Of a stretch of DNA of 64,000 nucleotides, positions 11,897 to 19,046 are shown one piece after another. The notes below the pieces were generated by a model. It made no database searches, was not told the origin of the DNA, and worked only from the letters and a program-made list of their open reading frames with translations. Position numbers and translations under genes: made by a program. The stretch's first letter is position 1; every line of letters starts with the position of its first letter. The DNA lies in NCBI RefSeq assembly GCF_017656475.1, contig NZ_JACDNT010000001.1, positions 1 to 64,000 of the forward strand, read 5' to 3'. Origin of the DNA: Archaeoglobus sp. (GTDB lineage: Archaea > Halobacteriota > Archaeoglobi > Archaeoglobales > Archaeoglobaceae).

Positions 11897-13234
11897 ATGA
11901 AATACGACGTTTTGATAATCGGTGGTGGGCCTGCAGGGATGGTTACAGCAACGACTGCAAAAAAGTTTTACCCTGACAAGAGCGTTGCGATAATCAAGAA
12001 GGAGGAGAAGGGTCTGGTTCCATGTGGAATACCCTACGTCTTCAGCACTCTCGGATCGGTTGAGAAGAACATAATGCCGACAAAGCCGGCAGAGAACCTC
12101 GGAATCGAGTTCATAATCGACGAAGTTACAGATGTTGACGTCAAAGCAAAGGTTGTAAAAACCAAGAGTGGCAAAAGCATCTCATACGAGAAGCTTGTTT
12201 TTGCCACCGGTTCAACGCCTGTAATACCGAGAATAGAGGGTGTTGAGAAAGAGGGAGTTCATGCGGTGTCCAAGAACATTGACGAGCTGAAGAAGCTCCA
12301 TGAAGCTGTTGAAAAGGCTGAGAGAGTTGTCATAGTGGGCGGAGGCTTCATAGGTGTTGAGGTGGGGGAACAGATAGCCAGACTGGGAAAGAAGGTAGCA
12401 ATAGTGGAAATGATGGACCAACTCCTTCCTGCTGCCTTCGACAAGGAATTTGCGAGAATTGCTGAAGAGGAGCTGAAGAAGCTTGGAGTTGAGCTTTACC
12501 TTAACTCAACCGTCAAAAAGATAGTCGGTAATTCCAAGGTTGAGGCGGTTGAGCTGGTGGATGGAAGGAAAATTGATGCTGACGTTGTCATTTTATCAGT
12601 AGGTTACAAACCGAACATAGAGCTTGCGGAAAAGGCAGGGTTGAGAATAAGCATAGGAAACAGGATATGGACGGATGAGTACGGCAGAACGAGCGAGAAA
12701 GACGTTTTTGCTGTTGGCGACTGCTCTGAGGAGAAGGACTTCTTTACAAGAGAGACGAGCAGAGTTATGCTCGCTTCAACCGCGACCTTTGAGGCAAGGA
12801 TTGTTGGGGCTAACCTATTCTCTCTTAAAGTTGTGAGGGTGAACAAGGGAACTGTAGGCGTTTTCTCAACAGTTGTTGGAGAGGTCGCCTTTGGTGCTGC
12901 AGGTCTAACTGAAGAGGCTGCGAGAAAGGAGGGGTTTGAAGTTGTTGCAGGTTACGCTGAAAGCTTCAACAGACATCCTTCAAGTATCCCTGGAGGAACA
13001 GTAACAAGAGTGAAGCTTGTTTTCGCAAAGGAGAGCGGAACAATTCTCGGCGGACAGGTTGCGGGAGGTGCAGAGGTTGGAGAAATGGTCAACATGATTG
13101 CAATGGCAATCCAAAATCACCTCACTGCATCGGAGATCGACACATTGCAGATTGGTACACATCCGCTTTTAACCTCAGCACCTACGATGCCCCCGCTGAT
13201 AATTGCAGCCGAGGATGCTCTGAGAAAAATGTAA
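11897..13234 (+). CDS. FAD-dependent pyridine nucleotide-disulfide oxidoreductase (CoA-disulfide reductase/NADH oxidase-like)
   Basis: MKYDVLIIGGGPAGMVTA; single redox Cys in GLVPCGIPYV; VVIVGGGFIGVEVGE; FAVGDC. Confidence 0.9.
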   Translation: MKYDVLIIGGGPAGMVTATTAKKFYPDKSVAIIKKEEKGLVPCGIPYVFSTLGSVEKNIMPTKPAENLGIEFIIDEVTDVDVKAKVVKTKSGKSISYEKLVFATGSTPVIPRIEGVEKEGVHAVSKNIDELKKLHEAVEKAERVVIVGGGFIGVEVGEQIARLGKKVAIVEMMDQLLPAAFDKEFARIAEEELKKLGVELYLNSTVKKIVGNSKVEAVELVDGRKIDADVVILSVGYKPNIELAEKAGLRISIGNRIWTDEYGRTSEKDVFAVGDCSEEKDFFTRETSRVMLASTATFEARIVGANLFSLKVVRVNKGTVGVFSTVVGEVAFGAAGLTEEAARKEGFEVVAGYAESFNRHPSSIPGGTVTRVKLVFAKESGTILGGQVAGGAEVGEMVNMIAMAIQNHLTASEIDTLQIGTHPLLTSAPTMPPLIIAAEDALRKM

Positions 13235-14431
13235 CTATCCAATATTTTTTTCAACCTCTCTGAGAACTTCTCGAAGAGGTATACCTAAGTCCTCTGCTAT
13301 TTTCCTGAGATCCTCGTACTCCGGTTTTACGTTTATTACCTTTTCGCCCATCTTGGACGTTTTGACCGTTACTTCAAACTTCTTGCCAAAGAGCTCGATT
13401 TCAACCTTCTCCTTCTTTCTTTCTGCCACCAATCTCGGTAGCTCGTAAATCCTTACCCCTATCGTTCCTGTCTCCCTCATAAGAACCTCAGCCATTCTGT
13501 GGCAATTTTTGTAGTCACTGATCACGGAAATAACGTTTGCCGGTCGGTTTTTCTTGCCGATTACCTGAGTGACATACACATCAACAGCACCCTCATCGAA
13601 CAGCCTTCTTACAGCATGCCCTACAATCTCCCCACTAGCATCGTCAACGTTGGTTTCGAGAATAACTATTCTGTCGTTCACAGCCCTGAAATCCTCTCCT
13701 TCTGCCACTCTCAGCACGTTAACGATTCCGTCAACCCTCTTAGTACCAGCCCCGTAGCCAATCCTACTTAGTTTCATAGGTGGAAAAACATCCACCACAT
13801 TCTCAGTAAGATTTACCAAAAGCGCTGCTCCGGTCGGAGTTGTCAACTCCGTGTTGACATCAAAGTTTGAATATCTAAAACCATGTGCTGCCAGAATCTC
13901 AAGCGTTGCGGGAGCGGGAGAGGCAATTTTGCCGTGATCCATCTTTATATATCCCCCACCCAGCACGGGAGGAGTTGTGTAGATTTCAGCGTCGAAGTAC
14001 CCCTCTCTGTCGAGTATTGTCGCAGTCCCAACAACGTCAAAAATTGTGTCCAGCGAGGCTATTTCATGCAGATGGAACTCCCCGCCGTGAAGTCGTGCCT
14101 CTGCCCCTACAAGGTCGTCAATTACGCGATAAACGAATTTTGATGCTCGCTCAGATATCTCTAAGCTCTCCACTACCGATTTAACAGCTTTTCTAAGATT
14201 TGCCGGACTTGAAAGCCTTCTCTCTTTGATGTCGATCTCCAGTCCCTTTGCAAGTATTCCCATATCTCTCTCAATCACTTCCACTTTGAACTTCTGACAG
14301 TTTTCAAGCCTGTTTATTGCCTCTTCTACGTCTAAAACTGCATCAGTGGAGTCTGTCAGATCAATGAGGGCCGAAAGTAGCATATCTCCAGAGATACCGG
14401 CAATTTTTGGATCCAAAACAAGGATTTTCAT
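13235..14431 (-). CDS. larC: LarC-type nickel insertion protein (nickel-pincer nucleotide synthesis)
   Basis: MKILVLDPKIAGISGDMLLSALIDL...HLHEIASLDTIFDVVG...ETNVDDASGEIVGHA...GTIGVRIYE: LarC/DUF111 signature. Confidence 0.9.
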   Translation of the reverse strand: MKILVLDPKIAGISGDMLLSALIDLTDSTDAVLDVEEAINRLENCQKFKVEVIERDMGILAKGLEIDIKERRLSSPANLRKAVKSVVESLEISERASKFVYRVIDDLVGAEARLHGGEFHLHEIASLDTIFDVVGTATILDREGYFDAEIYTTPPVLGGGYIKMDHGKIASPAPATLEILAAHGFRYSNFDVNTELTTPTGAALLVNLTENVVDVFPPMKLSRIGYGAGTKRVDGIVNVLRVAEGEDFRAVNDRIVILETNVDDASGEIVGHAVRRLFDEGAVDVYVTQVIGKKNRPANVISVISDYKNCHRMAEVLMRETGTIGVRIYELPRLVAERKKEKVEIELFGKKFEVTVKTSKMGEKVINVKPEYEDLRKIAEDLGIPLREVLREVEKNIG

Positions 14432-14443
14432 AAAAAATAAAGA

Positions 14444-16294
14444 TTATGGAAGAATTTCTCCTCCCTCAACGAGCCTCGAATGTATTAGCTTGGCGAGTTT
14501 TGCAACCTCTTTTGCATTGTTTTTGGCACCTGGTATTGCCCTTGTCAGGTATGCACCGTTTTCAGCCTTCTTTGCAGCTTCATTCTCATCCATTCCGAGA
14601 ATTGCTGCCACAGCAGCGGGAACAGTTACGTTGATGATAGTATGACCGATGTACTGAAGTTCCTGCCCAAGAACAGCGCCGGCAAAAAGAGCAGTTCCGT
14701 AGTCCGGATCGTCTCTTCCCTTACCTTCAAGTGCGTAATCCACGACAGCTTTGGCGGAGAGGTTCTCAATATGGTATGTTTTTCCGTCAATGGTTACATC
14801 GTAGGATATGTAGGAGTCGAAACCCCAGAACTTCTTGGTGAATCCGTCAGTTCTCCTCGCCTGCGGTCTGATTTCTGTAAACTTGAACTCAATCTTCTTG
14901 CCTGTGAAAGCCGAGAGTATTGCCGACCCCCTCTTCTCAACGTAAGCCTTCCTTTCTTCATCGAGGGTTCTCGCAACCTCTTCAACATCCTTGCCCTCTT
15001 TTAGCATTTCGTACGCCTTAACTGCCCTCCTGTAGATCGCTCTATCCCTCACGTCCTCACTTGCGAGCATGCATGCCCGTGTTACGGGACCCCTCTTAAC
15101 CTCTTCAGCCTTCCTTGTGATCGTGTTGAGCGCGCACAAAGCCATCTCAGGATCTATGAAAGAGTTCATCTTGTAGTTCCTTATCTCCTCAGCAACCTTG
15201 TAAATGTCCCCGTACTTCATCATCAGCCTTATGGCCGGAACAGTATCACCGCACAGATGGCCCAGCGGTGGGTTTACCGGTCCACCTGAGAAACCGGCGC
15301 CAATGATGGGAGACTCCTCAAATCCCGCAAATATTTCATTTAGAGCCATTGATCCAATTACCGACGGTCCGCCTATGTCCTTCAGTATAAGTCCGAAGTC
15401 TCCAATTACCCTGGCAGTTTCGAATTCTTCCCTTGTGCCCCTTATGTGCAGCTTTTCTGGCAGGCCAGCAGCCTCCACAGCACCCTTTCCTGCCATGTAT
15501 GCCGAATCGGCACTGCCAAACGCTCCGAATTCCTCCCCAAGGAAGGCATCTGGATGCACTATCTCCATCGCAACAGTTGCACCGATAAGTGCCGGCCAGA
15601 GTGGGTAGGGTGTGATTCCTGCCCCCTCCATCGCTCTCATCATCGCCTGAGTTCCGACCTTTGCAGCATTCTTGGCAAGTTCCGGTATGTTAACGTCCTC
15701 ACCCAGAGCACTGTGTCCATAAATGGCTCCACCAGCTATAAACGGCGGAAGTACAGCTCCATCAACCTTCGTGAGCTTCTTATCGAGTAGTTCCTCAAAA
15801 ACGGCTTTGTATGCCGGGAATGCGGGTATTCTATGAGTAAACTTGTTGGTAACAAGAGCTATACCGCTCGTTCTGCATGCCCCAGCATGCATCCTAGCCA
15901 TCGCGCCAAGCTTTCTGTTAGCCATCGGAACTCCGGCTCTCGCTGCAGCACCGGCAAAGTAAGCAAGAGCCGCAACTATGAGCGCGGCATTCTCAGGAGA
16001 GGCTCCCGCATTTTTCGCCTCATTGACCGCCTTTTGAATTACGAGATCCAATGGAATTTGCGGTGCTGCAGCATCGACGAGCGTTGCCTCACTCATCAAT
16101 TTCATTTCGGGCTCCTGAACACCACCAAACATATCCTCCGCAATAGAGTTTGCTGCACAAAAAACTGGGATTACCAGCGTACCATGACCCTTCGTTGCTG
16201 CTTCTATCTTGTCGTTTGTCATAAGGTCTGGCTTAAACGTTGCTGCAAGTGTTGCTGCTAATACTGCTTTCTCCTTTTCTTCCATACATTTCAC
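14444..16294 (-). CDS. Conserved-looking 616-aa protein of unknown function, co-directional with larC (12-bp gap)
   Basis: MKCMEEKEKAVLAATLAATFKPDLMTNDKIEAATKGHGTLVIPVFCAANSIAEDMFGG...; long clean ORF; no family recognised by eye. Confidence 0.75.
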   Translation of the reverse strand: MKCMEEKEKAVLAATLAATFKPDLMTNDKIEAATKGHGTLVIPVFCAANSIAEDMFGGVQEPEMKLMSEATLVDAAAPQIPLDLVIQKAVNEAKNAGASPENAALIVAALAYFAGAAARAGVPMANRKLGAMARMHAGACRTSGIALVTNKFTHRIPAFPAYKAVFEELLDKKLTKVDGAVLPPFIAGGAIYGHSALGEDVNIPELAKNAAKVGTQAMMRAMEGAGITPYPLWPALIGATVAMEIVHPDAFLGEEFGAFGSADSAYMAGKGAVEAAGLPEKLHIRGTREEFETARVIGDFGLILKDIGGPSVIGSMALNEIFAGFEESPIIGAGFSGGPVNPPLGHLCGDTVPAIRLMMKYGDIYKVAEEIRNYKMNSFIDPEMALCALNTITRKAEEVKRGPVTRACMLASEDVRDRAIYRRAVKAYEMLKEGKDVEEVARTLDEERKAYVEKRGSAILSAFTGKKIEFKFTEIRPQARRTDGFTKKFWGFDSYISYDVTIDGKTYHIENLSAKAVVDYALEGKGRDDPDYGTALFAGAVLGQELQYIGHTIINVTVPAAVAAILGMDENEAAKKAENGAYLTRAIPGAKNNAKEVAKLAKLIHSRLVEGGEILP

Positions 16295-16303
16295 CTCACA
16301 AAA

Positions 16304-16319: not shown

Positions 16320-16436
16320 ATTGGATTGACCACTATAAAAACCTTCGGTTTAAATATTAAATTTTATTAAAATTTTATTAAAATTTTCGAAATTCAAAAA
16401 ATTAATAACTTAAATTTATGAGAGTATGCACCGACT

Positions 16437-16724: not shown

Positions 16725-19046
16725 ATGAAAAAGCTCGTGATAGTACCCCTGCTATTACTTGCAATCTTTGTCATTGCTGCATACAGCTACCTCAACCTCC
16801 TTGCCCCCTTCAGCGGCAGCCTGTGGGAGGTGGACAGATCAACAGAGGTTCCAAATCCTTACGGCTGGGCTGAAGTTTACTTTGACGAATACGGTGTGCC
16901 ACACATAGTTGCTGAAAATGAGAAGGCTATGGCTTTTGCAGTTGGTTACATCCACGCCAAAGACCGTCTCTTCCAGATGGACCTCCACCGAAGGATGATG
17001 AAGGGAGAGCTAAGCGAAGTTTTTGGTGAGGATTTCTTCGACTCCGATGAGTTCCACATAAAAATGGATTTTGCTGGTGCAGCAGAAGCTTCGTGGAGCA
17101 TAATCAAAGATTCAGAAATTGGTGACTTTCTGGTTGCATACAGCGAGGGTGTGAATTACTACATCAACAACCGCCCTCTCCCGATTGAGTTCAAGCTCGC
17201 AGGCTACAAGCCCAAAGAGTGGACTCCGGTTGATTCTCTCCTGCTTGGAAAGGAGATATCGTGGAGTCTAACTGGTAACTTCTGGGATTTGAAAAGAGCT
17301 CTGATCGTCGAAAAGCTAGGAGAGAAGGCACTGGAACTATACCCGGAGTATATGAACCACTCTTACCCCATAATAAGGACCGAAATCGTTAACAAATCTC
17401 TCCTCGACTGGCTTAAGCCATTTGAGGCGAAAGAAGGATTGGGATCGAACAACTGGGTCGTTTCAGGAAAGTTCACAGAAAACGGAAAGCCGATGCTCGC
17501 CAACGACCCCCACCTGCTCCTGATGGCCCCGCCCGTCTGGTACGAGATGCACCTGAAGGTGGATGAGGAGAATGTCAGAGGTGTATCCCTTCCAGGCGTG
17601 CCGGTCATCCTGATCGGGATGAACGACTATGTGGCGTGGGGCTTTACCAACGTTGGGGCTGATGTAATCGACTTCTACTACTATGTCTGGGATGGCGAGA
17701 AGTACCTCTACAAAGGTGAGTGGCTCGAACCGGAGAAGAAGGTCAAGGTGGTGAGGGTTAAGACAGACAGCGGTGTTGAGGAGAGAGAAGTTGTTGTGGA
17801 AAAGACCGTTCATGGGCCTGTTATAGAGAAGCACGGAAGAAAGATTGCGGTTGCTTGGACTGGACTGACAGCAACGAGAGAAGCATTGGCAATTTACAAG
17901 TACAACCACGCACACAACATCTCTGAGTTCATTGAAGGTTTGAAGCTCTTTGATGTTCCCGCGCAGAATGTGGTTTATGCAGACATCTACGGAAATGTGA
18001 TGTATTATCCAGCAGGAAAATTCCCGATAAGGCTTATTAACGGAACTGAAGTTCCCGGCAATGTCATATTCAACGGCTCGGCTGGAGAGGGAGAGTGGAG
18101 GGGGTTCAAACCCTATGGCGTTTCAACTTGGGAAGGCTTTATACCTTTCGAGGAGATCCCCCATCTCATAAATCCCGATTACGTTGGAACTGCAAACCAG
18201 AGGGTTGTTTTTGGCTATCAGCACTATCTTGGCGATTCGATGTACTTTGCAGACCCATACAGAGGTATGAGGATTTACCAAATGCTCGATGATGCTGCCA
18301 AATCAGGCAAAAAGATATCTCATGAGTACTTCATGGAAATGCAGAGAGACGTCTACTCCAAACCGGCGGAGTTCTTCACACCGTTCATTTTTGAGGCTGA
18401 AGGGAAAATGAGCGAAAAGGCGAAGAGCTACGCTGAGAAGCTGAGAAACTGGGACTTCAGAATGGTTAAAGACAGCGAAGCGGCACTGGTGTTCTCAATC
18501 TGGCTCGAAGAGTTTATAAACGAGACTTTTGGCGATGAGTTCTACTCAGCCGGGCTGGATAAAGACTTCTACCCCCACCTCTACGTTCTTCAGAACCTGC
18601 CTGCATACAGCATCTGGTTTGACGATATCAGGACTGAAGAAAGGGAGCAGAGAGCGGATATTGTGGCGAGAGCCATGGAGAAGGCAGTTGAAATAATAGA
18701 GTCTGAAGGTTACAGGGTTTATGGAGACTACAACAGGCTGAACATAGAGCACGCGTTCAGCAGCTTGGTTAAATTCTTCGACTATCCAAGCATGCCGATG
18801 AACGGCTCCACGTATACCGTTTTCAACTTCAGAAGGGCCGTTGACTGGGGAACTGGAGTATCGCAGGCAGGGAGTAGCTGGAGAATGATCGTCAACTTCG
18901 ACAAGAACTACTGCATAATTCCGGGTGGAAATTCTGGCAACTACTTCTCCCCACACTACTACGATCAGCTTGAAATGTGGGCGAATGGAGAGTACAAGAG
19001 CTTCGATTTCAATGTTAGAGGTGAGAAAATTGTCTTCAGGGGGTGA
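16725..19046 (+). CDS. Penicillin acylase-family N-terminal nucleophile hydrolase, secreted/membrane-anchored
   Basis: Signal peptide MKKLVIVPLLLLAIFVIAAYSYL; DEYGVPHIVAENEKAMAFAVGYIHAKDRLFQMD; nucleophile context EGLG|SNNWVVSG (Ser241). Confidence 0.93.
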   Translation: MKKLVIVPLLLLAIFVIAAYSYLNLLAPFSGSLWEVDRSTEVPNPYGWAEVYFDEYGVPHIVAENEKAMAFAVGYIHAKDRLFQMDLHRRMMKGELSEVFGEDFFDSDEFHIKMDFAGAAEASWSIIKDSEIGDFLVAYSEGVNYYINNRPLPIEFKLAGYKPKEWTPVDSLLLGKEISWSLTGNFWDLKRALIVEKLGEKALELYPEYMNHSYPIIRTEIVNKSLLDWLKPFEAKEGLGSNNWVVSGKFTENGKPMLANDPHLLLMAPPVWYEMHLKVDEENVRGVSLPGVPVILIGMNDYVAWGFTNVGADVIDFYYYVWDGEKYLYKGEWLEPEKKVKVVRVKTDSGVEEREVVVEKTVHGPVIEKHGRKIAVAWTGLTATREALAIYKYNHAHNISEFIEGLKLFDVPAQNVVYADIYGNVMYYPAGKFPIRLINGTEVPGNVIFNGSAGEGEWRGFKPYGVSTWEGFIPFEEIPHLINPDYVGTANQRVVFGYQHYLGDSMYFADPYRGMRIYQMLDDAAKSGKKISHEYFMEMQRDVYSKPAEFFTPFIFEAEGKMSEKAKSYAEKLRNWDFRMVKDSEAALVFSIWLEEFINETFGDEFYSAGLDKDFYPHLYVLQNLPAYSIWFDDIRTEEREQRADIVARAMEKAVEIIESEGYRVYGDYNRLNIEHAFSSLVKFFDYPSMPMNGSTYTVFNFRRAVDWGTGVSQAGSSWRMIVNFDKNYCIIPGGNSGNYFSPHYYDQLEMWANGEYKSFDFNVRGEKIVFRG

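Follow-up and report, generated by a model that had tools for sequence, protein, structure and literature searches.

The only users of the nickel-pincer cofactor NPN known in the literature belong to the LarA superfamily (PF09861), 2-hydroxyacid racemases and epimerases that include lactate racemase. In NPN synthesis, LarC serves as a CTP-dependent nickel insertase, and the CTP-binding half of LarC is its LarC2 domain. Use of CTP by LarC has been described, larB, larC and larE occur without larA in about 15% of surveyed genomes, and authors in the field expect NPN proteins other than LarA (PMC11796402); in Haloferax, larBCE is present without an assigned user (PMC8305020). In our literature search no NPN user outside LarA was named, the known NPN enzymes all being members of that superfamily.

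The window analysed here, 64,000 nucleotides from an Archaeoglobus genome (contig NZ_JACDNT010000001.1), contains a two-gene unit in which a larC gene follows the gene of a protein that we call T. The features of this unit are the following:

14444-16294, minus strand: open reading frame of T, 616 codons from GTG (open reading frame list)
14444-16285, minus strand: T, 613 aa from an ATG start, a candidate NPN-dependent enzyme of a family without recognised relatives (open reading frame)
16291-16297, minus strand: Shine-Dalgarno-like GAGGTGA, placed 5 bases before the ATG at 16285 (read from the sequence)
16334-16341, minus strand: putative archaeal TATA-like element TTTTTATA (read from the sequence)
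14432-14443, minus strand: gap of 12 bases between the T stop codon (14446-14444) and the larC ATG (14431)
13235-14431, minus strand: T-linked larC paralogue with LarC1 and LarC2, 398 aa (domain matches and LarC tree)

A sequence-only reading of this DNA had described a 616-aa protein placed 12 bp from larC on the same strand. The spacing proved exact, and so did the naming of the neighbour, whose product matches Pfam Ni_insertion (E 6.6e-105) and passes the curated cut-offs for both LarC1 (146.6 bits, cut-off 90) and LarC2 (129.3 bits, cut-off 50); judged by these domains, it is an intact, true LarC. The length needs adjustment: the frame does hold 616 codons from the GTG at 16294, but the in-frame ATG at 16285 is probably the start, giving 613 aa, because GAGGTGA, a Shine-Dalgarno match, sits 5 bases upstream of it. 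The unit consists of T and larC with no further genes, the downstream gene being convergent (ending at 13234) and the upstream gene divergent. This divergent neighbour encodes a 773-aa protein of the penicillin amidase family (16725-19046, plus strand) and is kept in the nearest relative, L057.

T has no matches in Pfam or NCBIfam up to E = 1 and no convincing match in a PDB sequence search, and the Pfam, NCBIfam, PHROGs and PDB searches together rule out a known family for it by sequence. The LarA domain Lar_N (PF09861) is absent both from T (Pfam, up to E = 1) and from 45 T homologues, and no Pfam or NCBIfam match ties T to the families of the folate-like tetrahydromethanopterin (H4MPT) pathway (MtdB, Mch, Ftr, Fwd, Fae and others). 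The AlphaFold (AF2) model of T is confident (pLDDT 88.8, pTM 0.90) and consists mainly of helices; a beta hairpin lies near 465-506. Searched with Foldseek against the PDB, it gave nothing at E <= 0.1 (best 0.12), with probabilities of at most 0.11 among the matches listed. No LarA appears among these listed matches, from a library whose cut-off is later than LarA structures such as 5HUQ, and a LarA-like fold was accordingly rejected; there was also no convincing transporter fold in the PDB, and nothing in a viral fold library. The earlier statements that T belongs to no recognisable family and is not LarA-like thus stand after both sequence and fold searches. A suspected likeness of the T C-terminus to MmgE/PrpD found neither profile nor fold support.

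The residues invariant across the 45 T homologues include K125, K148, K302, H191, H343, E196, D197, E241, D246 and D303, and the NRK motif (123-125) is invariant as a whole. Two segments of the model have a pLDDT below 50, namely 55-76 and 119-123, the latter at the NRK motif. Such low confidence can happen where a ligand is absent, which may be the cause here.

A scan of the collection with the T family alignment detected 73 loci. By the labels of their sources, which for bins may be imperfect, the archaeal loci belong to Archaeoglobi, Methanomicrobiales, Methanosarcinaceae, Methanobrevibacter, Thermoproteota and Thorarchaeota, and the bacterial ones to Synergistota, Chloroflexi, Desulfobacteraceae and relatives, Bacillota (Gracilibacter, Sporomusa), Actinomycetota and one Proteobacteria bin. 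T or pieces of it are found in 32 of 295 genomes of the window's phylum. In several genomes T is in pieces or shortened (G213, at C1:1136989-1137640; L088, L115, L133 and L131), possibly through contig errors, and these broken copies suggest that T is dispensable and sometimes decaying.

The linkage of T to lar genes is conserved in two domains of life. In 62 of the 64 loci whose flanks both exceed 700 bases, a lar gene lies on the same strand within 600 bases of T, in archaea and in several bacterial phyla, compared with a rough chance expectation of 0.2% per genome. In most cases this gene is larC or encodes a LarC2 domain alone; further lar genes may join it, as in Methanosarcinaceae (T, LarC2, LarB, LarC) and in Sporomusa (LarC2, T, then LarE, LarB, LarC). 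The two exceptions are the Thermoproteota loci L069 and L127, where an mtdB-like gene adjoins T and no lar gene occurs in the stretch examined. A known unrelated family for T combined with the lack of a conserved lar neighbourhood would have spoken against the sequence-only reading; neither was found.

A tree calculated from 41 LarCs unites those linked to T in Archaeoglobi, Thermoproteota and Methanomicrobiales as a single clade (support 100/99), and the window larC product falls into it. The unlinked LarCs of T-bearing genomes group with the ordinary LarCs of relatives, and the full-length LarC of the Methanosarcinaceae T cluster also groups with ordinary LarCs. Many members of the T-linked clade have lost LarC1 histidines and acids that are invariant in ordinary LarC, LarC1 scores in L039 and L060 being 21 and 30 bits against the cut-off of 90; LarC2 scores hold at 112-129 bits, with most of the ordinary-LarC invariants kept. 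In the other T clade (Methanosarcinaceae, Methanobrevibacter, bacteria) the partner is LarC2 alone. This stand-alone LarC2 retains D263, K293, K294, R296, G325 and K357 (window LarC numbering) in all 32 proteins, and its PDB matches include the LarC2-domain structure 6bwo. The conserved partner of T is specifically the LarC2 (CTP) domain, a point that the sequence-only reading did not contain. Consistent with a partner of its own, at least two LarC matches are present in 29 of 32 T genomes versus 15 of 263 genomes without T, as counted by eye with stand-alone LarC2 and split genes included. In one complete genome of the same genus (L034:11687-12870), the T-linked larC lies in two frames overlapping near residue 90, through either a frameshift or a sequencing error.

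Judged by their gene content, the hosts of T make NPN: every one of the 29 T genomes tested has LarB and LarE scoring over the cut-off, and all 32 T genomes in the sample of the phylum (n=295) have a LarC match. Nearly every genome of the phylum has LarC (268 of 295; LarA is over the cut-off in 158), so that finding NPN genes in a T genome carries little weight, and the argument rests on the dedicated paralogue, on adjacency and on the extra LarC matches. Eight T genomes (G074, G140, G154, G169, G208, G302, G303 and G308) have no PF09861 match, and T is therefore a natural candidate for the NPN user in them. The window's own genome has LarA on another contig. Many LarA-less genomes with LarC are also without T, which, together with the LarC and LarA counts for the phylum, means that T cannot be the sole unknown user of NPN. 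In several further T genomes the PF09861 matches are only weak, about 20 bits. These and similar weak matches (G000:C14:26712-26837, for instance) lie in proteins of about 370 aa that may be DUF362 and could be further NPN users; DUF362 is placed in the same clan as LarA (PMC11770544).

A second link of T, likewise new with respect to the sequence-only reading, is to H4MPT one-carbon genes. Bacterial T loci (L111, L114, L117, L120, L129, L091 and others) extend into a set made up of mtdB-like, ATP-grasp, fwdD, fwdB, fwdA and H4MPT synthesis genes, or into part of this set, and in Methanocorpusculum mptA adjoins T. In methanogens and Archaeoglobi T is accompanied by larC or LarC2, and H4MPT genes are usually not nearby. 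The H4MPT pathway marker Mch is present in 16 of 19 T genomes tested; the three others (L123, L124, L125) are Sporomusa and two divergent lineages, and the H4MPT context therefore does not extend to the whole T family. Within Synergistota (n=121), Mch occurs in 11 of 12 T genomes, one of which has just a T fragment, versus 6 of 109 genomes without T (1 T genome lacks Mch and 103 genomes lack both; p about 1e-10, without phylogenetic correction). An association of NPN genes with H4MPT clusters seems to exist independently of T as well: LarB, LarC and LarE also lie within the H4MPT clusters of some T-less genomes, and the tie between NPN and H4MPT may therefore extend beyond T.

Several other features of these clusters deserve mention. 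LarC is found in or near H4MPT clusters at L147:5485-6693 (LarC1 only), L155:4604-5797 (full) and L164:39-1247 (full). In the H4MPT cluster of a T-less genome, LarE is fused to an RdgB/HAM1 NTP pyrophosphatase domain (L145:2906-4246, 446 aa), and a similar 446-aa open reading frame is present in L155. DUF2193 (PF09959), a protein of about 500 aa with conserved Cys/His, occurs in Synergistota H4MPT clusters with and without T; it was matched at L145:15803-17323, and L150:16715-18283 and L158:13853-14998 are 68-74% identical to that protein. As a remote homologue of T, DUF2193 was rejected (hhalign probability 1%).

The sequence-only reading had proposed T as an NPN-dependent enzyme, a nickel-handling protein or a pathway enzyme, and the missing family and fold matches together with the conserved lar neighbourhood support this candidacy. 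We favour, with a probability of roughly 0.62, the reading that T is an NPN-dependent enzyme unrelated to LarA, charged by its LarC2-domain partner and acting in H4MPT-linked one-carbon metabolism. T would then be the apo-enzyme of a second class of NPN enzymes, resembling LarA neither in sequence nor in predicted fold. NPN itself would be synthesised by LarB, LarE and ordinary LarC, and the T-specific LarC2-bearing partner, be it a dedicated LarC paralogue (Archaeoglobi, Methanomicrobiales) or a stand-alone LarC2 (Methanosarcinaceae, Methanobrevibacter, bacteria), would finish, cytidylylate or deliver the cofactor to T. Hydride transfer via the pincer would be performed by T, in the main clades as part of H4MPT-linked one-carbon metabolism; in Sporomusa and lineages like it the substrate would be a different one. 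What we infer in this scheme is the binding of NPN by T, the job of the partner, the hydride chemistry and the substrate.

The main rival, unlikely as we consider it, is that T processes the cofactor itself and, with its LarC2 partner, makes from NPN (or P2TMN) another pincer cofactor, which some other enzyme would use. The most constant neighbour of T is indeed a cofactor-biosynthesis domain and no metabolic enzyme, and T-linked LarC departs from ordinary LarC at conserved positions (M284G and G287N in ordinary-LarC numbering). However, no single other enzyme goes with T everywhere in the neighbourhood comparison, and T lies amid transporter and enolase-superfamily genes in Sporomusa and beside acyl-CoA dehydrogenase and enoyl-CoA hydratase genes in L124, as would be expected of a catabolic enzyme. 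Another reading is that T is an NPN-free H4MPT enzyme, with lar genes nearby since NPN serves another step of the cluster. The lar genes in the H4MPT clusters of T-less bacteria and the two Thermoproteota loci with an mtdB-like gene beside T and no lar gene in the stretch examined would fit such a role, but it is quite improbable given that T of methanogens and Archaeoglobi keeps larC or LarC2 mostly without H4MPT genes, that the T-linked LarCs fall in one clade, and that in Sporomusa, without H4MPT, the lar neighbours of T are still there.

T might also take the place of Fae in bringing C1 units into H4MPT, for none of the Mch-positive Synergistota tested has Fae. Yet Fae is missing there with and without T, and those Archaeoglobi and methanogens with T that were tested do possess it; T is therefore not simply a Fae substitute, and we deem this role very improbable. 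Linkage to a nickel insertase gene would suit a protein that handles or stores nickel, or one that acts as chaperone to LarC, but we give hardly any credence to such a function for a protein whose predicted fold is large and mainly helical and which has many invariant polar residues and no convincing match to a transporter fold, the more so as many genomes with LarC manage without T.

If T is an NPN-dependent enzyme, the nickel-pincer cofactor serves an enzyme outside LarA, with a fold new to the PDB, and NPN is linked to the archaeal-type one-carbon pathway that methanogens, sulphate reducers and anaerobic bacteria use. T is a concrete and widespread non-LarA candidate with a dedicated cofactor partner, and its cultured hosts (Methanosarcina, Methanoculleus, Acetomicrobium and Sporomusa) make this reading open to testing now. 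One may speculate further that T is a new-fold Ni-pincer enzyme moving hydride to or from a C1-H4MPT intermediate, a nickel counterpart of [Fe]-hydrogenase that uses a cytidylylated (dinucleotide) NPN made by its LarC2 partner; in so specific a form the idea is rather improbable. The [Fe]-hydrogenase Hmd carries an iron-guanylylpyridinol cofactor, in which a metal is joined to a pyridine, and moves hydride to C1-H4MPT. The parallel between T and Hmd is a speculative one of function alone, with no similarity by sequence or fold search.

Compared with LarA, T would share hydride transfer at a nickel pincer, for which its invariant Lys and His residues are available as tether and Ni ligand, but it shows no sequence or fold similarity that we could find, is larger and mainly helical, and has a LarC2-domain partner of its own. 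T resembles the constituents of H4MPT clusters (mtdB, mch, ftr, fwd/fhc and H4MPT biosynthesis genes) in being embedded among them in Desulfobacterota, Chloroflexota, Bacillota and Synergistota, whereas the protein itself is unlike any known enzyme of that pathway. A further tie to a described system is to LarC, the gene adjacent to T encoding a bona fide LarC homologue; unlike ordinary LarC, this neighbour is part of a clade of T-linked paralogues, many of which show decay of LarC1, and elsewhere its place is taken by LarC2 alone.
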